From Lentisphaerota bacterium (GTDB lineage: Bacteria > Verrucomicrobiota > Lentisphaeria > Victivallales > Victivallaceae): a DNA stretch of 64,000 nt. Positions 10,631 to 20,713 of this stretch are shown here, in pieces. The translations under genes and the position numbers were made by a program. Position 1 is the stretch's first letter. The number at the start of each line of letters is the position of its first letter. Under the pieces are notes generated by a model. That model did no database searches. It saw nothing but the letters and a program-made list of their open reading frames with translations, and had not been told where the DNA came from. The DNA is taken from contig SUWE01000007.1 in assembly GCA_015061615.1 (NCBI GenBank), forward strand, positions 1-64,000. Direction: 5' to 3'.

Positions 10631-10798
10631 CCACAACTTGAAATTGTCAGTTTGTTAAAATAACCCCATTTTACTGTTTTTTCAAGCATTTTTTTATAAA
10701 AAACGTTGTTTTTCATTCTGCAATCGGCTTATCAGGGGGATTTTGTGTTGACAACAATCCTTTTTATGGAGAGACAATTTTTTCAGGAAACTTTTATT

Positions 10799-10906
10799 AT
10801 GGATTACATTGAATTGAAACAAATGCTGGATGATATCATCGCAAAACTCGATGAACTGCTCGAACTTGTCAGCAATTCATCCGGCAGCAGGGAGAGCTTT
10901 TTATGA
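10799..10906 (+). CDS. 35-aa leucine-rich, coiled-coil-like protein, first gene of the tail-like cassette
   Basis: MDYIELKQMLDDIIAKLDELLELVSNSSGSRESFL; ATGA overlap with next gene. Confidence 0.6.
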   Translation: MDYIELKQMLDDIIAKLDELLELVSNSSGSRESFL

Positions 10907-11739
10907 ACATTGAACGCTCTGTCGGTGAGAAACTCAAACTCGACTGTTACGGCAAATGTGAAAGCGCCCGCATCTGCTACGTCGCCAGCGGAATTGCCGC
11001 AGATGAAATCGACTCCGCAGTCGTTACCGTCTTTGAAAGCGCCCCGGAATCGTGGGAAGATATTCCCAAACACAGTGCGGAAATACTCCACTCACCCGGC
11101 GGCGGCATGCTTGAGATCGCTGTCAATTACCGTGAAGAAAATTCCTCATCTTCTTCCCGCAAAAGCAGCAGTAAATCCAACGGCGACCGCGAATGGCGTG
11201 TCGATGTCCACGCCCGGCAGAAGCAAATGCGTCATGCCCGCGCGCTTGCCGGAGCATTTGCCGTCAACGGCGTCACCGTTCCGAATCCGGGAACGCTTGT
11301 CAACTGGAACGGCAGAAGCGGCATCGGTTCATCCTCGACCCCGGTGACGGCTTATGAGCCGGAAATGATACTTTCCTGCATTGCCACTTTCCGCAAGAGC
11401 AAGACTCAGTCAAACTCTTATCTGCGGCAGATATCCAATCTGGTCGGCAAGGTCAACAGCGAGCGTTTCCAGCAGTGGGCGGCAGGTGAGCTGCTTTTTC
11501 TCGGATTGTCATGCGGACCGGTCTTCAAGGGCAAAAACGGTGAGTCGCTTTGTGATCTTACGTTCCGTTTCAGTGTCCGCTGCAACGGGACCCGGACTCT
11601 TGACGGCTTTTCCACTGAAGTTGACGGCTGGGATCATCTCTGGGGTATCTATTCTGTGCGCAATGGTGTGAATATCCTTGACAATGCCTATATCAGCCGC
11701 CTTTACGACCGCGCACCGTTTTCGGTGCTTGACCTTTGA
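10903..11739 (+). CDS. hypothetical structural-type protein of the tail-like cassette
   Basis: 278-aa ORF, translationally coupled; no recognised family. Confidence 0.75.
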   Translation: MNIERSVGEKLKLDCYGKCESARICYVASGIAADEIDSAVVTVFESAPESWEDIPKHSAEILHSPGGGMLEIAVNYREENSSSSSRKSSSKSNGDREWRVDVHARQKQMRHARALAGAFAVNGVTVPNPGTLVNWNGRSGIGSSSTPVTAYEPEMILSCIATFRKSKTQSNSYLRQISNLVGKVNSERFQQWAAGELLFLGLSCGPVFKGKNGESLCDLTFRFSVRCNGTRTLDGFSTEVDGWDHLWGIYSVRNGVNILDNAYISRLYDRAPFSVLDL

Positions 11740-11756
11740 TATGAAAGGGAATTGTT

Positions 11757-12650
11757 ATGTTTTTTCAGGATGTTTCCCCCGGTGATCCGCGGCTGCCGGA
11801 GTCGGCGGAGCGTTATAATGCTGTCAACCGTCTGCTGAACAGTTGCGGCGATCACCACTCTTTTGCAGGTGAGGGGTCTTTCAATGGGAATATCATCATT
11901 GATTTCTGCAACATTTCAGACAGAGAGATACTGCCGTTTACTCCGGTTTCTCTGTATGGTGCTATGGATAAAGAGTCTTTGACAATGCTCCGGGAACGTT
12001 TTTCAGGCGGCAGTTACACCGCTGTCAGGCCTGCGGAAAACGGCAGCACCCTCTGGGGCATATCGCTTGATAAAGTTCCGCCTTCAGAGTCCGGCAGAGC
12101 CGTCATTTCAGGAGTCGTGCCGGCATGGTTCACCGGCAGCGGCAATTTCGTCACTCCGGAACTTGCCGGTCTTATTGCCGGAGATTCCGGAGCGGGGCAG
12201 GTCATCGCGCACCCGGTAAATTATTCCGGCACAGTCAAAGATGATTCCTTCCCCGGAATAATTCTGCTCGGCGGCAATTCTGCTGACTCTGAGCGTTATG
12301 ACGGAACTTTCAAACTTCTGCCGGTTTCGGCAACTCAGCTCAAACTTATTTCCGGCAGTGTGCCGGAGCAGACGGATTTTGCCGGCGGCAGTGATGTGCC
12401 GGGATTTTCAAAAATCCCGCAGATGATGCTGGAGCTTGCTCCTGATATCCGTCACCGGATATACATTTATTTTGATTACGATAAAGCCGGTAAAGAGTAT
12501 TCTGTTCATCTGGGTACGGAAATTCCGGATGGTATCGTTCTTTACGAGTATCTCGGTGAATTTTTCAACGGCAGTGTTGTTCAATCCTACAAAAAGAACA
12601 GCTATCTGCGTTTCGGTGATATCTGGTATCTGACTCCGGAGGGGGAGTGA
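11757..12650 (+). CDS. hypothetical protein of the tail-like cassette
   Basis: 297-aa ORF; stop overlaps the next start. Confidence 0.75.
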   Translation: MFFQDVSPGDPRLPESAERYNAVNRLLNSCGDHHSFAGEGSFNGNIIIDFCNISDREILPFTPVSLYGAMDKESLTMLRERFSGGSYTAVRPAENGSTLWGISLDKVPPSESGRAVISGVVPAWFTGSGNFVTPELAGLIAGDSGAGQVIAHPVNYSGTVKDDSFPGIILLGGNSADSERYDGTFKLLPVSATQLKLISGSVPEQTDFAGGSDVPGFSKIPQMMLELAPDIRHRIYIYFDYDKAGKEYSVHLGTEIPDGIVLYEYLGEFFNGSVVQSYKKNSYLRFGDIWYLTPEGE

Positions 12651-13666
12651 TGAACTGGATAGCTGAAAATTTTACTTCAACAGCAAAGGCATGGAACACT
12701 TTGTGCGATGCCGTTGAAGAACGTGCGGAGGTGTATCAAATAGATCTTGAAAGTTCTGGTATCACCATTCCCCGGCATAAGGAGGCTCCTGCCAAATGGG
12801 ATTTTGACTTTATCCGTATGCGCGAAGTGATCTTCCGGATATTTCAGGTATCTTATCTGCCGCTGTGGTTCAATACATGGCAAAAGGCAGATACCGACTA
12901 CCGGGGGGCATGGGATGATTTTGTACTCAACAGTGAGGTTTTCAACAAACTCGGCATTGACAGTCACGCATTTTTCCGGGTCAGTCCCGGTGCGGTCACT
13001 CCCCGGCACACGGTCAGTCAGTTTATCTTCAATGCGGCAAAAATCATCAATGATGCCTGCATCTATCCGGCGCCGGGGTATTCCAACACACCGGAATACT
13101 CCGGATTCATGCTTGATGCCGACCTTTACATTGAAGGTTTTGATCCGGTGTATCACGCTTCAGGTAAACAGAGTACCACAGGAGCATTGAGTTACAACTC
13201 ATCTCTGCCGGGTTATGATCTTGTATCCTGCACAAGCCATTTTCTTGCCGAACACAATCACCCTCACGGCAGGTCGCGGGCACTCAATCAATGCTGGATA
13301 TATCACAACCCCGGCGGGATCGTCAACGGCGGCAGAGCTGCTCTTGATTATGCTTCGCCGGTACTTGAAGGCAGCTGCCGTTTGCGCAGTATTGATGCTC
13401 AAGTCAGCCATACCGATTTTGATGACCCCGGTAAAAATGTTGTAAAAAAAATCTCTTTTGACCACACCGTCAACTTTGAAGATAACAGGGCAACGTCAAA
13501 TATCGACTTATCCGGTTTTCAGGATATCGTGGACAAAATCTGGAATATTGAGGTTGAAGATCACGTTTATCGAATCAATCTGGAAAATTTTATTCCGGAA
13601 ATTCTTCTGACCGAAGATAATTTTCCGGATTATCCCGGCAAATACAAATATATAACAAGGTTATGA
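12647..13666 (+). CDS. hypothetical protein of the tail-like cassette
   Basis: 339-aa ORF, coupled at both ends (start 12647 GTG or 12650 ATG). Confidence 0.75.
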   Translation: MMNWIAENFTSTAKAWNTLCDAVEERAEVYQIDLESSGITIPRHKEAPAKWDFDFIRMREVIFRIFQVSYLPLWFNTWQKADTDYRGAWDDFVLNSEVFNKLGIDSHAFFRVSPGAVTPRHTVSQFIFNAAKIINDACIYPAPGYSNTPEYSGFMLDADLYIEGFDPVYHASGKQSTTGALSYNSSLPGYDLVSCTSHFLAEHNHPHGRSRALNQCWIYHNPGGIVNGGRAALDYASPVLEGSCRLRSIDAQVSHTDFDDPGKNVVKKISFDHTVNFEDNRATSNIDLSGFQDIVDKIWNIEVEDHVYRINLENFIPEILLTEDNFPDYPGKYKYITRL

Positions 13667-14349
13667 TCATGCAAAAAATACGTTCAATTTTGAAAATTAC
13701 CAACTCCGGCGCGGCTCTCAGCGATATTTACGGTTCCACCGCCGGTATCGGATTGGAACTTATGCTCGGCACCGGGTGTCTGCTGGAGTTTGAACTGCAT
13801 CAGGAATCTTCCGGCACAATGGCAGAACTCCCTGATTTCCCCGCAGAACAGCTTGCTCCTGCGGCGTGTTACTGCGCTCTGGATTTTTCCTGCGGCAACA
13901 GCGACGATCCGCCGCTGCTGATCTTTACAGGGGTGACGCTCAAAACCGACTCTGCCGGACATACGGTATTTACTGTTCCGGTAAACAACAGTGCGGTCGC
14001 GCGCATCGTTTCGGCACTCAAAGAGCGCTCATCGGCGGAACTTTTCTGTGAACTCGGCGGCTATGACGGTGAAGGCAATTCCCTTTTTGCCTGGCAGTTC
14101 AAAATCATTATGCGCAGCAGAGTCTACCTCGGCGGCGCTGACGGGACAGAGACTCCCGCCCCGGATCCGGCATACTACACTGCCGTGCAGATAGATGCCA
14201 TGTTCGCAGCTCTTAACGGAACTGCTCCCGGCGGGGATATTCCCGTAAAAGATGAAGGCAACTATTTTTCTGCAACCACCGTTGAAACGGTCTTGCAGGA
14301 GATCGGCAGTGAACTTGACGGTGTTCAGCAAATTCTGGAGGGTATCTGA
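13663..14349 (+). CDS. hypothetical baseplate/tail-appendage-like protein
   Basis: 228 aa; ends AVQIDAMFAALNG...NYFSATTVETVLQEIGSELDGVQQILEGI, a pattern common in phage appendage proteins; family inferred. Confidence 0.6.
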   Translation: MIMQKIRSILKITNSGAALSDIYGSTAGIGLELMLGTGCLLEFELHQESSGTMAELPDFPAEQLAPAACYCALDFSCGNSDDPPLLIFTGVTLKTDSAGHTVFTVPVNNSAVARIVSALKERSSAELFCELGGYDGEGNSLFAWQFKIIMRSRVYLGGADGTETPAPDPAYYTAVQIDAMFAALNGTAPGGDIPVKDEGNYFSATTVETVLQEIGSELDGVQQILEGI

Positions 14350-14351
14350 CC

Positions 14352-16715
14352 ATGAGTATTTCTTCCGAACTCAGCCGTATCAAAGCGGCAAAAGAGTCTT
14401 TGAAACTTGCTATCAATGCCAGAGGCGGCACATTGGGCAATGAGCTTATTGATGAATACGCATCTGCCGTTTCCGCATTGCCTTCCGGCGGCGATATCGA
14501 CCTGACAGGAGTTACTGTCACAGCGGATAAACTCCTTGAAGGCATCGTTGCCGTGGATGTTACAGGCAGTAAGATTACAGGCACTATACAGACCGTGACA
14601 GCGGCTGTCAGCGGTGATAATGTCGTTGTCCCTGCCGGATTTCACGCTGAAGCAAAGAGTTTCCCGGTTTCCGGCGGAGCAGATGTTTCCGGTGTTACCG
14701 TTACGGCATCTGATATGCTCAAAGGCAAAATTGCTGTCGGTTCCGACGGTCAGCAGATCGTCGGCAGTATCGAAACTGTAACCGCAAGCAAAAGCGGCGA
14801 TACGGTTACTGTTCCTGCCGGATTTCATGCAGAAGAACAGACTTTTGATATCGGCGGTGCTGAAATCGACCTTGACTTTGTGACAGCAGGTGCCAACGAT
14901 ATTCTTTCCGGCAAAATCGGTGCGGATAAAGAGGGCAACCCGGTTACAGGAACAATTCAGACCGTATCGTTGCAGGTTTCTGGAAATACCGTGACCATCC
15001 CCGCCGGATTTTCCGGCGGCGAAACCGTTGTTATTCCGGAAATTACCATCACCAATGACGGAGAAAAAATCATTGTTCCTGTTGGTTACAACAAAACTGC
15101 TCAGGAGTTTGAAATCAACTCCGTGACCGTCGGTTCAATGGATTTTTACAAGTGTGCCAGCGTGGACACCTCCGCAAAAACATGGACTGGCTATAAAGCC
15201 GTATTGAGTTCAGGCATATACTCTTTTGAGAAAACTCCCACTGCCGGATTGAGCTGTAATACGGTTGTTCCGGTACCGGGAAAAATCTATACCGCTGACG
15301 CTCTTGCGGTGATCGAGTATCTTTTTGAGGGATTTCCGGCTGTATCCATCACTGTTCCGCTTTCAGGGGATTACTCCGGAACGGTCAACGGCAACAGCAT
15401 AGATGTCACTTCAGGTGCAAACGGTAATCTCTCATGGGGAACTTTTGGTGATAGACTTTCTGATACAGCCGGTGAATTTCCGCTTGTATTTGACGGCGAA
15501 TCTTATCTTGACCTCAATGGTGTTACCACTGATGCGCTCGTCGGTGATTTCACACTCTGCATCGGTACATGCCTTATCAATCCTGAAAAACGGCAGGGAA
15601 TCCTTTCCACTACTGAAGGCTGTCACATTGCCATTGATTATTACAACGGCAAATACAACCTCTGGGTCGGAAGCGGCGACTACTGGGATATTCAAGCAGA
15701 TTATAATGACGGCATGGGAACTTACGGCGGCGGTTCCATTCCCTTCAAAAATGCGATGCCTGTTCATCTTGTAATTACCCGCAAAGGCAAGGTGTGGAAA
15801 CTTTTTGTTGACGGTGTACTTTCGGTTACAGCCGAAAGAGAAATCGCCATCCAAGCCGGTAAAACATTGCGGCTGGGAATGATTACTCCGCCGTACAGTG
15901 AGGAAAGTTTCAAAGCCGTCGGCAGAATGCAGAAGTTTGCAATTTATCCCGAAGCCGTTGATGATAATCTTGTCCACTCATTGAGGGATATCAAGTCGTA
16001 TCTCAATGGCGGACCTTATGATATTTACGATGCCGGAACAGAGGTGTTCTGGGATTCAAACGGCGAAGCGAATAACTGGTATTCTACAACAAAAACACAT
16101 GACGGCTGGGCGCTTGCCGGAATCTATGAGGGTATTAATGCCGACGGAACACCCATACGCGGACCGATGCTTGTTTCCGAAGACCCTTACAGCTGTATCA
16201 TGAACAGATCAGGCACTGCTGTCAGTTTTGAATACTATGGTAAAACTTATTACTGTTCATTACACAGTACGTGGAACACCGTGTACAACGATCACGGGCA
16301 GATTTGGCTTGATACTTTTGTAAATATTTCAACCGGCGCAGGTAAAGTTGAAGCGGCAACCGAACTGCTTGACCGTCACTTCGGCAGATATGCCGGTCCC
16401 GATCTTTCGGACTGTAATCTCTATGTCACAAGAGCGGGCATGGATGGTGTGAATGGAAAATGGGTGTTAAATACCACATTCGGCGAAAATCAGGGACAAT
16501 ATAAAAAAGGCACATTCCATATCGGCATCCGCGAATACGGCGGCTATTATTACATGTACGACATAACCGACCCCGATACGCCGCTTTATGGCGCATGTGT
16601 CTGGGACGATGCCAAAGGGGAGTATGTTCCCACTGCCGACGTTACCGGACCGTGGATTACGATGATGGCGCCGAACCCGCCGCCCAAAGTTATTATAGGA
16701 GAAGATGGAATATGA
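14352..16715 (+). CDS. tail-fibre-like protein with repeated A-(D/N)-x-L-x-G-K/I...GT-I-x-TV modules and a LamG/ConA-like domain
   Basis: N-terminus SRIKAAKESLKLAINARGGTLGNELIDEYASAVSAL and repeats such as ANDILSGKIGADKEGNPVTGTIQTV resemble phage tail fibres; LamG-like LVFDGESYLDLNGVTTDALVGDFTLCIGTCL... Confidence 0.7.
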   Translation: MSISSELSRIKAAKESLKLAINARGGTLGNELIDEYASAVSALPSGGDIDLTGVTVTADKLLEGIVAVDVTGSKITGTIQTVTAAVSGDNVVVPAGFHAEAKSFPVSGGADVSGVTVTASDMLKGKIAVGSDGQQIVGSIETVTASKSGDTVTVPAGFHAEEQTFDIGGAEIDLDFVTAGANDILSGKIGADKEGNPVTGTIQTVSLQVSGNTVTIPAGFSGGETVVIPEITITNDGEKIIVPVGYNKTAQEFEINSVTVGSMDFYKCASVDTSAKTWTGYKAVLSSGIYSFEKTPTAGLSCNTVVPVPGKIYTADALAVIEYLFEGFPAVSITVPLSGDYSGTVNGNSIDVTSGANGNLSWGTFGDRLSDTAGEFPLVFDGESYLDLNGVTTDALVGDFTLCIGTCLINPEKRQGILSTTEGCHIAIDYYNGKYNLWVGSGDYWDIQADYNDGMGTYGGGSIPFKNAMPVHLVITRKGKVWKLFVDGVLSVTAEREIAIQAGKTLRLGMITPPYSEESFKAVGRMQKFAIYPEAVDDNLVHSLRDIKSYLNGGPYDIYDAGTEVFWDSNGEANNWYSTTKTHDGWALAGIYEGINADGTPIRGPMLVSEDPYSCIMNRSGTAVSFEYYGKTYYCSLHSTWNTVYNDHGQIWLDTFVNISTGAGKVEAATELLDRHFGRYAGPDLSDCNLYVTRAGMDGVNGKWVLNTTFGENQGQYKKGTFHIGIREYGGYYYMYDITDPDTPLYGACVWDDAKGEYVPTADVTGPWITMMAPNPPPKVIIGEDGI

Positions 16716-17113
16716 TTACTGTTGAAGATGTGAAGAAAATGCGTGCTGAAGCTGAGCGCCTTCAGCTTTCCGGCAGGGAACTGCTTAATAACACCGAACT
16801 GGTCATGAGCGAATGCAACGGAACCGGAGCTGAGTGGATGGGGTGCGTTTGCGGTGTTATCGACACTTTCAACCCGGCTTTCACTCTGCCGTCATGGATC
16901 CACGATTTGAGATATTTCACCGGCGGCAGTGATGCTCAGAGAAAAACCGCCGATGATGAGTGGCTGGATAACGCTCTTATCTGCGTGAATGACCGTTACG
17001 GCTGGTACAATCCCTACCGGTATATTGAGCGCTCCAAAGCGCGCAGATTCTATCTTGCTCTGCGTGCGGCGGGGAATCTTGCGTGGAACAGCCAACTTGC
17101 GGAGGATGTATGA
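16712..17113 (+). CDS. small protein with PSWIHDLRYFTGGSDAQRKTADDEWL motif
   Basis: 133 aa from ATG 16712; IHDxxY..GG....R..AD motif recalls small phage/phospholipase-A2-like or DUF1353-like proteins; weak. Confidence 0.6.
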   Translation: MITVEDVKKMRAEAERLQLSGRELLNNTELVMSECNGTGAEWMGCVCGVIDTFNPAFTLPSWIHDLRYFTGGSDAQRKTADDEWLDNALICVNDRYGWYNPYRYIERSKARRFYLALRAAGNLAWNSQLAEDV

Positions 17114-17316
17114 CAACTTATGAGTGGCTCGGCTTGATCGTGGTACTTATCGGCGGCTTTTGGAAGTTGAGCAGTAAACTTACTAAAATCGAGGTCGCCT
17201 TGTCCGGCAAAGTCGGTTTTGAAGATTGTTCTGAGCGGCAGGGCAGGTGTACCTGTCACAAAAAAGTCGAAACAATGGAAAAACTGATGGAAAAACTCCA
17301 TCCGCACCAGCGGTAA
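17110..17316 (+). CDS. small single-TM protein, holin/XhlA-like by position and topology
   Basis: MTTYEWLGLIVVLIGGFWKLSSKLTKIEVALSGKVGF...; ATGA overlap with previous gene. Confidence 0.55.
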   Translation: MTTYEWLGLIVVLIGGFWKLSSKLTKIEVALSGKVGFEDCSERQGRCTCHKKVETMEKLMEKLHPHQR

Positions 17317-17324
17317 AATGATCG

Positions 17325-17367
17325 GGGGCTGTTGCAATAAATTTATTGCGCTCAGCCCCTGTTTTTT
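17325..17367 (+). terminator. strong intrinsic terminator closing the tail-like cassette
   Basis: ggggctg-ttgcaataaatttattgcgct-cagcccc then tgtttttt; palindromic interior gcaataaatttattgc. Confidence 0.85.
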
Positions 17368-17491: not shown

Positions 17492-20400
17492 TCAGGAGAT
17501 AAGAGCAAACGAGGTATCCCACTCTTTACCGACACTCTGGAAATATTTCCATTCGGTTGTATCAGCGCCTTTGACATAAAGTACGCCGATATCGCCTTTG
17601 TCGGTGCGGATACGGAGGTCATCGATTCCGTCACCGTTGAAGTCGGCGATCTGTTCAATGGAGTTTTTGTTTTTGCATAGACCGATGAAGCTGTCAACAC
17701 GACCGTCTTCAACAAGCCAAGCTCCGACCCAGCCGTTGGATTTGTTCTGAAGGAGAACGTCATCCACGCCGTCACCGTTGAAGTCGCCTGTTCCGACAAT
17801 AGTCATATCACTTTTAAGGGTATCAAGGTTGCTCCAAGTGATTTTACCGTTTTCATCAATCATGTAAGCGCCGGTGAATCCGGCATCATGACGGACGATC
17901 ACATCGTCGCATCCATCGCCGTCAAGGTCGCCGACTGCGGCGATTTTCCACTCTTTACCCAGACCTTTGATATAGTGCCATTTGTTATCATCGCCAGTGA
18001 CATATCCGAGGTCGCCAGTTTTTGAACGGAGCAGGTAATCGGTTACACCGTCACCGTCAAAGTCACCGATACCGAGCATATTCATGTTGGATTTGAGGGT
18101 GTAAAGTTCCTTATAGCTCTTGACTTTGCCGCTATCGGTAACCCATGCCGCAATGGTGGTGCCGATCTTCATGATGATATCAGAACCATTTTCCGAAGTG
18201 CCATTGACATTACCCATTCCGACAAGTTCAACTTTGTCATTGACATTGCCGAGATTGCCCCACAAAATAACAGATTTAGTTCCCGTTGTCATCCATGCTC
18301 CGGAGTAACCCTGTTTGGTGTGAACCAGAATCGTATCAGCAAGACCGTTGCCGTCAAGGTCATTTTTGATTGTCGCTGGTGCTCCACCTGTGATGGTAAG
18401 AGTCAGATCGCCATCAACTTCATCAAGTGAATAGGTTACACCGTTGTAAATAAGGTCATCACCATTGACAGAAATTGTGCCGAATTCTATGGTGCCGTTG
18501 CCGATGGTCAGCGGGTTAGAGAATTCCCATGCTTCCTGTGCCAGTCGGTATTTGCCAGAGGATTGATTATCGTTTACAGTGATGGTGAAGTTCGCGTTGT
18601 AAACTCTTGAAACATCGTTTATAAGGTAAGAGTCAGAACTTTTTCTGTCTGTAACGGTAAAATCAATAATTCCACTGCCATAACAGTAGACATATGAATA
18701 TTCGCCAATTTCCAGCGTCCCTTTAAGGATTCCGTCTTCACAATTAATATTTCCATCGATGATACGGGCATTACTTGCAATACCGCCTGAACAGATATAC
18801 ATATATCCATCTTCAATGCAGGTATTACTTGCAATACCGCCTGAACAGATATACATATCTCCATCTTCAATGATGGTGTTCCTCATTACACCGCCAGAAA
18901 CCTTTACAGAAGCATCATATGCCAATGTCAAGTTGTCAGCGGTTCCACCTGAATAGATTACTGCCGATATTCCAGATATAACCGTATCGGAAAGTGCTGT
19001 GTACTTGGAAATGAATCCTGCATTTTCACCGCCGCAGTAGATATTTGCATCCCGTTCCAGAAAGGTGACATTTGCGCCGCTGTTCCCCCACACTGTTCCC
19101 TGCCACGGATTGAATGCGATTGTCGCTGTACCGCCAGAATAGACATACATACTGCCGTATACAATTGCATTGTCTACTGAACCTCCAGAAGAAACCCACG
19201 CACTGCCGTAATTTTTTACTGTTACATTGCTTACTGTACCGCTTTCGATATACATCTGCCCAAATGAATTTACAACCGTATTGCTCGCAGTTCCGCCTTC
19301 GATGTATACCATGCCGTAGTTTGTAATGTCTATATCTGTTGCAGTTGTGTTTTTGTGGACGGTCATCGGGGCGCTTACCGTTATACCGCTGATGGTGTTG
19401 GAAAGAAAAGCGATGTCATCGGCACAATAGACATAACCGCCATTTTCCTTTATCGCCGTTGCTGAACCATTATCCAGAATATACAGCTTGGCACCAGTAT
19501 TGACAATAGTGCTGTTGGCATTTGCTCCTGAAGAAACATACATTATTCCGCCTGATTCCAGAAGCGTATCTTTGGCTGTGCCGCCAGAAGATACATGAAT
19601 AATGCCAGCATTGACAGTAGCACTGCTTAATGTTCCGCCAGTGTAAATATAAGCTGTGGCTCCTTCGTTTACTGTTGTTCGGTTAGCTGTACAACCTGAA
19701 GATACAAGCATATACGCCCGACTGTAAAGCGACATATCAGAGATTGTGCCGTTTTGTGCGTTAAAGGATGAGCCGCAGTAAGTACCCTGAATGACCGTGT
19801 TTTGGGCAAGATTGATTCCCAGTGCTACTCCTGAAGCGGCATTGACTGCAGTCGCTGTACCGCCTGAACGGACATTGATTGATCCGTTTGAGTTGACGGT
19901 TATGTCGTTGGCAATGCCGCCATTGAATACCTCAATATAGCCGCTAGTAAGGGTTGAACGGTCTATCCTTCCGCCAGAATAGACATTTATATGTGCGGAG
20001 ACCCCCGATACAACATTATCGAACGCTTTACCGCCAGAGTAGACATGAAGCTCACTTTTTGAACAGATACGGGTGCTGTTAGCAGTTCCGCCTGAATAAA
20101 TGAGCATTGATCCCATTGAGTTCAGAACAGTATTGTTTGCAATACCGCCGCGGCTTACATAAAGTCTGCCGCCTGACAGATAAATACCGCCGCCGACAGT
20201 TGTATTATTGACAACTCCGCTGTCCATGACATACATGACATTGTTGTAACCGATGTTTTTATTTTCCATTGTAATCGTATTGGAAACGAGCTTACCCTTA
20301 CTGCCATAGTAAACCCCGAGATATTTGCTGGTGAAAGTGACCGTTGCCCCGTCTTGTATTGTAACTACACCTTCGCAGGGAGTCCAGGTTATCGCGGTTG

Positions 20401-20713
20401 CTGTTCCCCCTGAAAAAACTTGCAGCAATCCCCCTCTTATGGTGATAGAACTGGCTACGCCTGTGGAATGAATATAAAATGAGCCGCCTCCTGAAATAAA
20501 TGAAGAAACAGCCACCGCTCCACTGTAAATATCAACTGTGCCACCTGTTATGTTTGTGTAATTGGCAATGCCGCCAGAGGAAACACGTAATGTCCCTCCA
20601 GTTACACATATATTACTGGTGATGCCGCCATTCAGGACATCCATGTAATCATTATAATCCCAAAGATCGGTATCCCGTTCGATTTTACCAGAACTGACAA
20701 CAATATGAGCCAT
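17492..20713 (-). CDS. large AIDA-type passenger-repeat protein with C-terminal FG-GAP/VCBS-like repeats
   Basis: Many ~18-20-aa repeats (xxVYSGGTAxxTxV); C-terminus DLDGNGLADTILVH, DFDGDGVTDYLLRS, DLDGDGCDDVIVRH, DFNGDGVDDVLLQN, DFNGDGIDDLRIRT. Confidence 0.85.
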   Translation of the reverse strand: MAHIVVSSGKIERDTDLWDYNDYMDVLNGGITSNICVTGGTLRVSSGGIANYTNITGGTVDIYSGAVAVSSFISGGGSFYIHSTGVASSITIRGGLLQVFSGGTATAITWTPCEGVVTIQDGATVTFTSKYLGVYYGSKGKLVSNTITMENKNIGYNNVMYVMDSGVVNNTTVGGGIYLSGGRLYVSRGGIANNTVLNSMGSMLIYSGGTANSTRICSKSELHVYSGGKAFDNVVSGVSAHINVYSGGRIDRSTLTSGYIEVFNGGIANDITVNSNGSINVRSGGTATAVNAASGVALGINLAQNTVIQGTYCGSSFNAQNGTISDMSLYSRAYMLVSSGCTANRTTVNEGATAYIYTGGTLSSATVNAGIIHVSSGGTAKDTLLESGGIMYVSSGANANSTIVNTGAKLYILDNGSATAIKENGGYVYCADDIAFLSNTISGITVSAPMTVHKNTTATDIDITNYGMVYIEGGTASNTVVNSFGQMYIESGTVSNVTVKNYGSAWVSSGGSVDNAIVYGSMYVYSGGTATIAFNPWQGTVWGNSGANVTFLERDANIYCGGENAGFISKYTALSDTVISGISAVIYSGGTADNLTLAYDASVKVSGGVMRNTIIEDGDMYICSGGIASNTCIEDGYMYICSGGIASNARIIDGNINCEDGILKGTLEIGEYSYVYCYGSGIIDFTVTDRKSSDSYLINDVSRVYNANFTITVNDNQSSGKYRLAQEAWEFSNPLTIGNGTIEFGTISVNGDDLIYNGVTYSLDEVDGDLTLTITGGAPATIKNDLDGNGLADTILVHTKQGYSGAWMTTGTKSVILWGNLGNVNDKVELVGMGNVNGTSENGSDIIMKIGTTIAAWVTDSGKVKSYKELYTLKSNMNMLGIGDFDGDGVTDYLLRSKTGDLGYVTGDDNKWHYIKGLGKEWKIAAVGDLDGDGCDDVIVRHDAGFTGAYMIDENGKITWSNLDTLKSDMTIVGTGDFNGDGVDDVLLQNKSNGWVGAWLVEDGRVDSFIGLCKNKNSIEQIADFNGDGIDDLRIRTDKGDIGVLYVKGADTTEWKYFQSVGKEWDTSFALIS
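18771..18878. repeat. near-perfect 54-bp (18-codon) tandem duplication inside the AIDA-repeat gene
   Basis: ttacttgcaataccgcctgaacagatatacatat(a/c)tccatcttcaatg occurs twice, offset 54 nt. Confidence 0.8.

Follow-up and report, generated by a model that had tools for sequence, protein, structure and literature searches.

A candidate domesticated siphovirus tail-tip module conserved in a genus of gut Lentisphaeria

Contig SUWE01000007.1 of the Lentisphaerota bacterium assembly GCA_015061615.1 carries, within the 64,000-nucleotide stretch analysed here (positions 1 to 64,000 of the forward strand; 'the window'), eight open reading frames that all lie on the plus strand between positions 10799 and 17316 and form one operon (genes g1 to g8; Table 1). 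This cassette is, by descent, a siphovirus tail-tip module that derives from the genes next to the tape measure gene on its downstream side; that conclusion is well supported, as is the conclusion that the cassette is vertically inherited and under purifying selection. The reading favoured for its function, to which about an even chance is given, is that of a domesticated tail-tip module (or 'adhesion device'), headless and tubeless, that has become fixed in one genus of Lentisphaeria from the ruminant gut and that combines a variable receptor-binding fibre with an enzyme resembling phospholipase A2 (PLA2). Its probable site of action is the surface of other cells.

All of the genomes compared are metagenome-assembled genomes (MAGs), the window's own assembly (G000) being 2.7 Mb in size and 85% complete. 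Gene calls at related loci come from a simple home-made script, and the pattern search for relatives used a narrower alignment of g2, the first one having been too diverse. The eight close relatives of the window's genome are likewise Lentisphaeria or Lentisphaerae MAGs, including some from sheep colon and yak colon samples.

Descent from siphovirus prophages

The model of the g2 protein produced with AlphaFold2 (AF2; predicted local distance difference test, pLDDT, 89.6) matches 19 entries of BFVD at E<1e-3 (best E 7.8e-11), all of which are unnamed tailed-phage proteins; chains of tail tips, tubes and baseplates are abundant in the list that it draws from the PDB, none of them significant. 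In other genera of the class, a g2 homologue is found in prophages directly downstream of the tape measure gene, an arrangement recorded at 15 loci (two of which are prophages within this genus) and on five viral contigs, and homologues of g3 (profile E 1e-7 to 1e-31), g5 and g7 come next, in the same order, in prophages of several genera. Among these prophages, L072/L073 (on G102:C30), L074, L075, L078, L084 and L087 each carry all or most of a set made up of terminase, capsid/protease, decoration, major tail and tail-completion genes.

The original prediction, made from the sequence alone, had described the cassette as phage-tail-like and self-contained, without head or packaging genes, and the g2 fold, the prophage synteny and the whole-genome absences described below all support that description. 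It had named two findings that would refute it. The first, that such cassettes are always embedded in complete prophages, holds in other genera and fails in this one, nearly all genomes of which have the cassette by itself. The second, that the genes are structurally unrelated to tails, fails because the predicted fold of g2 matches tailed-phage proteins and its relatives follow tape measure genes.

Searches of 50,697 GenBank phages by tblastn with g2, a prophage g2, g6 and g7 gave no matches; this family of Lentisphaeria siphoviral prophages thus has no recognisable relative of g2 in that collection. Two genomes of the genus (G018 and G005) harbour real siphovirus prophages (L049 on G018:C7 and L051 on G005:C31), with tape measure, major tail protein and capsid genes, beside the stand-alone cassette.

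Components of the cassette

The peptide that precedes g2 (31-54 aa in the window's clade, longer elsewhere) is probably what is left of the C-terminus of a tape measure protein, corresponding to the part that is seated inside the tail tip. Its penultimate residue is Y or F in 18/18 recognised g1 peptides, against a background of 57/959 (6%), and an aromatic residue (Y/F) occupies positions -4 to -2 in 15 of 16 prophage tape measures. Reciprocal profiles of g1 and of tape measure C-termini gave areas under the curve of 0.92-0.94 against other C-termini and of 0.83-0.91 against shuffles; the g1 loci are related to each other, and this likeness is to be read as one between groups. In the lambda tail tip, the resolved residues of the tape measure protein (gpH) are the C-terminal 818-842 (PMC10721106), and in phage TP901-1 deletion of the last 30 residues of the tape measure abolishes tail assembly, its C-terminus being assigned to the initiator complex (PMC5099701). 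Thus, a stub of 35 residues would be the very piece of the tape measure worth keeping for a tip that has no tube.

Searches of the window's proteins against Pfam, PHROGs, NCBIfam and PADLOC returned nothing informative besides the fibre, and profiles of g2, g3 and g5 found nothing useful among PDB sequences. The fourth gene occurs as several sequence sub-types within the genus at a conserved position. The g5 protein has a conserved N-terminal domain of approximately 180 aa followed by a coil, with a variable C-terminus, and is likely the adaptor for the fibre. Second g5-like genes occur in four genomes (L145 on G010:C26, L146 on G027:C42, L148 on G028:C287 and L144 on G014:C172); several of them adjoin a gene of about 600-700 aa, maybe a divergent tape measure, and they probably belong to another, related phage group.

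The fibre (g6) matches phrog_13589 (E 8.6e-7). Its LamG domain, which had been proposed at the outset, scores below the Pfam cut-off of 27.6 bits in the window's protein (Laminin_G_3, 24.1 bits, E 4.6e-5) and clears it by a wide margin in two orthologues (42 and 54 bits; E 1e-10 and 3e-14). The length of the fibre ranges from roughly 240 to 1100 aa between species, and comparison of the close pair G003/G032 gives about 77% identity over the first 200 residues and 40-67% beyond them, a pattern of divergence typical of a receptor-binding part.

The motifs of g7 (CNGxGAxW and HDxxY, the latter already noted in the original prediction) pointed to a phospholipase A2 ahead of any search. When the AF2 model of g7 (pLDDT 89) was compared by Foldseek, the PLA2 structure 4aup took the first two ranks (probability 0.94-0.96) and the bacterial PLA2 1faz was ranked 18th, all with E above 0.1, and 4aup is also one of only two PDB matches of the g7 sequence profile (E 1.8). 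In many sister genomes the slot of g7 is occupied by a DUF1353 protein, and the two profiles are homologous (hhalign probability 96%, E 4.7e-9). The DUF1353 profile itself found nothing useful among PDB sequences. PLA2 activity has been demonstrated for one DUF1353 protein, which is distantly linked to group XIV (PMC11525133). Sequence and model together give g7 what the PLA2 superfamily calls for, namely a predicted PLA2-like fold with the calcium loop and the HD motif; it resembles the DUF1353 enzymes (TtaP class) and the group XIV enzymes in profile and predicted fold, and differs in being encoded within a tail-tip operon. In the alignment of the g7 family, the 'AD' motif of the second helix reads AD in most stand-alone cassettes and AN in the prophage versions, a change that possibly corresponds to a difference in PLA2 activity.

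The last gene, g8, has the single hydrophobic stretch that had been reported for it, and its position after g7 is conserved in many loci of the genus.

Distribution, inheritance and selection

Within the genus, g2 is present in 32 of 35 genomes, nearly always as a single copy, with a second where a prophage coexists; the three genomes that lack it are incomplete (71-78%). Its reading frame is intact in nearly all of the 32, and g5 is present in 31 of the 35. Elsewhere in the class g2 is sporadic (62 of 199 class genomes in all), and homologues in the other genomes of the order (21 of 103) lie in prophage settings where examined.

The g2 tree tracks that of guaB (Mantel r 0.88, equalled in 0/5000 permutations), with 12 of 19 splits shared. 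In close pairs, the ratio of nonsynonymous to synonymous substitution rates (dN/dS) is 0.08-0.28 for all cassette genes tested, versus 0.02-0.04 for guaB; the values are rough because dS is near saturation in several pairs. Gene order is constant at several genomic sites with host genes around them. The window's clade and its nearest relatives have the cassette between rpmH/yidC and the c9-lpxD-guaB side, and other clades have it elsewhere, with clade-specific host flanks. The operon is therefore more than a chance arrangement, as the same gene order recurs across the genus under purifying selection. In one lineage (G011, G013, G014 and G028), g1-g2 are found at one locus and g3-g8 at another with all parts kept, and G025 has a similar g3-g5-g7 locus; retention of both halves after such a split is strong evidence of a joint function for the host.

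These data bear directly upon the idea that the cassette is a functionless, decaying prophage remnant. The truncation of the tape measure and the loss of head genes are what such decay would leave, and the proteins do diverge fast (g2 distances are about nine times those of guaB), but the intact g2 frames, the dN/dS values, the conserved order and promoter-like box, and the retention of all parts after the split already contradict it; the idea is rejected, with a probability close to nil.

Absence of other phage components

Across the 35 genomes of the genus, G005 and G018 alone have a tape measure match above the cut-off of its profile, and G028 has a single match below it; the capsid protein is found in the same two genomes only, plus a broken fragment of 35 aa in G012, and the major tail protein in those two alone. 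They are the two genomes that carry a second, prophage-embedded copy of g2. Since tape measure, capsid and major tail protein are confined to them, the stand-alone cassette elsewhere is not part of a present-day phage. A terminase of the GpA type, the one terminase family searched, matches only in G025. The whole of G000, at 85% completeness, yields no GpA-type terminase, capsid, major tail protein or tape measure. A profile of gp19-type tubes (PF06841), the one component of contractile injection systems searched for, has no match, but as its control genomes are equally silent this does not count as negative evidence.

Three familiar identities were considered and set aside on this basis. An ordinary complete prophage does not fit, as G000 and nearly all genomes of the genus lack a GpA-type terminase, a capsid, a tube and a tape measure. 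A tailocin, which the original prediction had listed in minimal form among its candidates, does not fit a genome in which neither tube nor tape measure was matched anywhere. A gene transfer agent (GTA) does not fit the absence of capsid and GpA terminase from G000, though the cassette is vertically inherited as a GTA would be.

It might be supposed instead that the machine is split, with an unrecognised tube or membrane complex encoded at another place in the genome and the tips attaching to it, to give a noncontractile tailocin or an injection device. Tail proteins diverge fast, and the cassette itself tolerates division over two loci; but the tape measure and major tail profiles match only the two prophage-bearing genomes (beyond the one sub-cut-off tape measure match), and with g1 merely a stub there is no ruler for a tube. 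Such an arrangement is considered distinctly unlikely. Still more improbable is a satellite-style helper, in which the cassette would provide helper phages with alternative tips for delivering host DNA or a satellite to new targets. It has a full set of tip and fibre genes and no capsid, and related phages circulate in the class; against this, no integrase, packaging or replication genes were recognised alongside, the cassette is inherited vertically, and prophages that could act as helpers are rare in the genus.

Proposed function

Under the favoured reading of a domesticated, tip-only module, the g1 stub would nucleate a tip complex of g2, g3 and g4, to which g5 would attach the LamG fibre g6, and the PLA2-like g7, together with the membrane protein g8, might attack or open a membrane. 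A cell would thus make free tail tips without head or tube, which may be released (with g7 and g8 aiding exit) or displayed at the surface; the fast-diverging fibre would bind glycans or surfaces of neighbouring cells, and the PLA2-like enzyme may act either at exit or at the target. One candidate in the original prediction, a 'domesticated receptor-binding/lysis module', comes close to this; what it had overlooked is the probable tape measure stub, the PLA2-like nature of g7 and the inheritance of the cassette throughout the genus.

Several points weigh against this reading. The cassette has no endolysin, no secretion signal was noticed, and all of the genomes are MAGs. The PLA2 scores for g7 are weak to modest singly, though concordant together; g2 has no significant match to any solved structure; and g1, the scores of which are weak one by one, is missing or unrecognised in approximately 10 of 28 loci.

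The main rival, nonetheless judged unlikely, is an anti-phage assembly decoy, whereby incomplete tips bearing the stub would enter the tails of related siphophages and cause progeny tails to be aborted or fitted with the wrong fibre. Blocking of tail assembly is an established form of defence (the tape measure is the target of Tab, and Tai prevents tails from assembling; PMC10884400, PMC11364771), and it is with the part represented by the stub that tail assembly begins (PMC5099701). Only 2 of 35 genomes of the genus have complete prophages of this kind, versus 21 of the 103 other genomes of the order with a g2 homologue, but this deficit is small and is confounded by phylogeny and assembly quality. 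For a decoy, the fibre, g8 and the PLA2-like enzyme would be superfluous, yet constraint on g5, g7 and g8 is clear. PADLOC matched no known anti-phage defence system (with its 2023 library, which may lack genes of the Tab/Tai type). If the decoy reading were right, the cassette would act at the same assembly step as Tab and Tai, which differ from it in being small dedicated inhibitors on prophages or satellites rather than an eight-gene structural module.

Operon layout and flanking genes

The eight genes, all confirmed as originally placed, had been described as joined nearly throughout by ATGA-type overlaps. This was slightly generous: such overlaps are present at g1/g2, g4/g5, g6/g7 and g7/g8, and g3/g4 overlap as well, but gaps of 17 bases and 2 bases separate g2/g3 and g5/g6, respectively. 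The strong terminator that had been proposed is real; a simple hairpin scanner overlooked it because of its loop.

Table 1. Coordinates of the cassette genes and associated signals in the window
Feature	Position	Strand	Description
Promoter-like box TGTTGACA	10746..10774	+	Upstream of operon
g1	10799..10906	+	35 aa; probable C-terminal stub of tape measure protein
g2	10903..11739	+	278 aa; tail-tip protein (distal tail or hub initiator), from fold matches and synteny
g3	11757..12650	+	297 aa; tail-tip protein; ortholog of the prophage gene that follows g2
g4	12647 (or 12650)..13666	+	~338 aa; fast-evolving tail-tip protein; conserved position
g5	13663 (or 13669)..14349	+	~226 aa; likely adaptor bearing fibre
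g6	14352..16715	+	787 aa; tail fibre, repeats and LamG domain
g7	16712..17113	+	133 aa; PLA2-like; CNGxGAxW loop and HDxxY
g8	17110..17316	+	68 aa; one hydrophobic stretch and Cys-rich tail; holin-like by position only
Intrinsic terminator	17323..17361	+	-24.6 kcal/mol; z -4.7 versus shuffles; T run after

A box resembling TGTTGAC[AG]AT-N5-GCA recurs before cassettes at different genomic sites and thus moves along with the cassette. In 17 of 28 cassettes the core GTTGAC lies no more than approximately 110 bases from the first gene, versus 23 of 410 background genes (140 bases); the box is not accompanied by a canonical -10 element at the sigma-70 spacing (17 bp).

On one side the cassette is flanked by rpmH/rnpA/yidD/yidC, and on the other by an AIDA-type gene. 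When this neighbourhood was compared between genomes, as had been suggested, two of them (G032 and G003) proved to have c9, the gene that comes after the cassette in the window's clade, only a few genes away from rpmH; the cassette is missing from this site in both and lies at another. The AIDA-type gene (17492-20713, minus strand), between the cassette and c9, encodes a 1073-aa AIDA/Ag43-type protein of strand-loop-strand repeats with an FG-GAP-like C-terminal part; it is absent at that site in most other genomes of the clade, with one shorter relative in G010.

Relationship to known systems and implications

The closest comparison is with the siphophage tail tip itself (gpM-gpL-gpI-gpJ-gpH in lambda; Dit-Tal-Bpp in TP901-1), which likewise is encoded directly after the tape measure, consists of tip proteins and a fibre, and holds a C-terminal helix of the tape measure inside the tip (PMC10721106, PMC5099701). 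In contrast, no matching head, tube or full tape measure was found in the genome of the cassette, which is vertically fixed in a bacterial genus, and its proteins have no recognisable sequence homology to those of the lambda and TP901-1 tips. F-type tailocins (noncontractile bacteriocins) share with it domesticated tail genes, a receptor-binding fibre and lysis-type genes, but they retain the tube and tape measure that the cassette does not. GTAs such as RcGTA are also domesticated siphovirus genes that are inherited vertically, but they retain capsid, packaging and tube, none of which was found for the cassette.

To our knowledge, the domesticated tails described so far (tailocins, GTAs, extracellular contractile injection systems and type VI secretion systems) all retain the tube, and a phage-derived device consisting of a tip only looks like a type that has not been described before. 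A more specific proposal, held tentatively and at somewhat less than even chances, is that free-standing tail tips built on a tape measure stub, and equipped with a variable, lectin-like fibre as well as an enzyme resembling PLA2, bind surfaces without tube, sheath or head and so represent a class of machine not previously described.

If this is true, a tip-only module under selection throughout a genus would show that the adhesion device of a phage is useful by itself. The cassette offers a natural minimal set for studying whether tips assemble in the absence of a tube and whether about 35 residues of a tape measure suffice for their nucleation, and it ties a family of PLA2-like enzymes to phage tail-tip operons.

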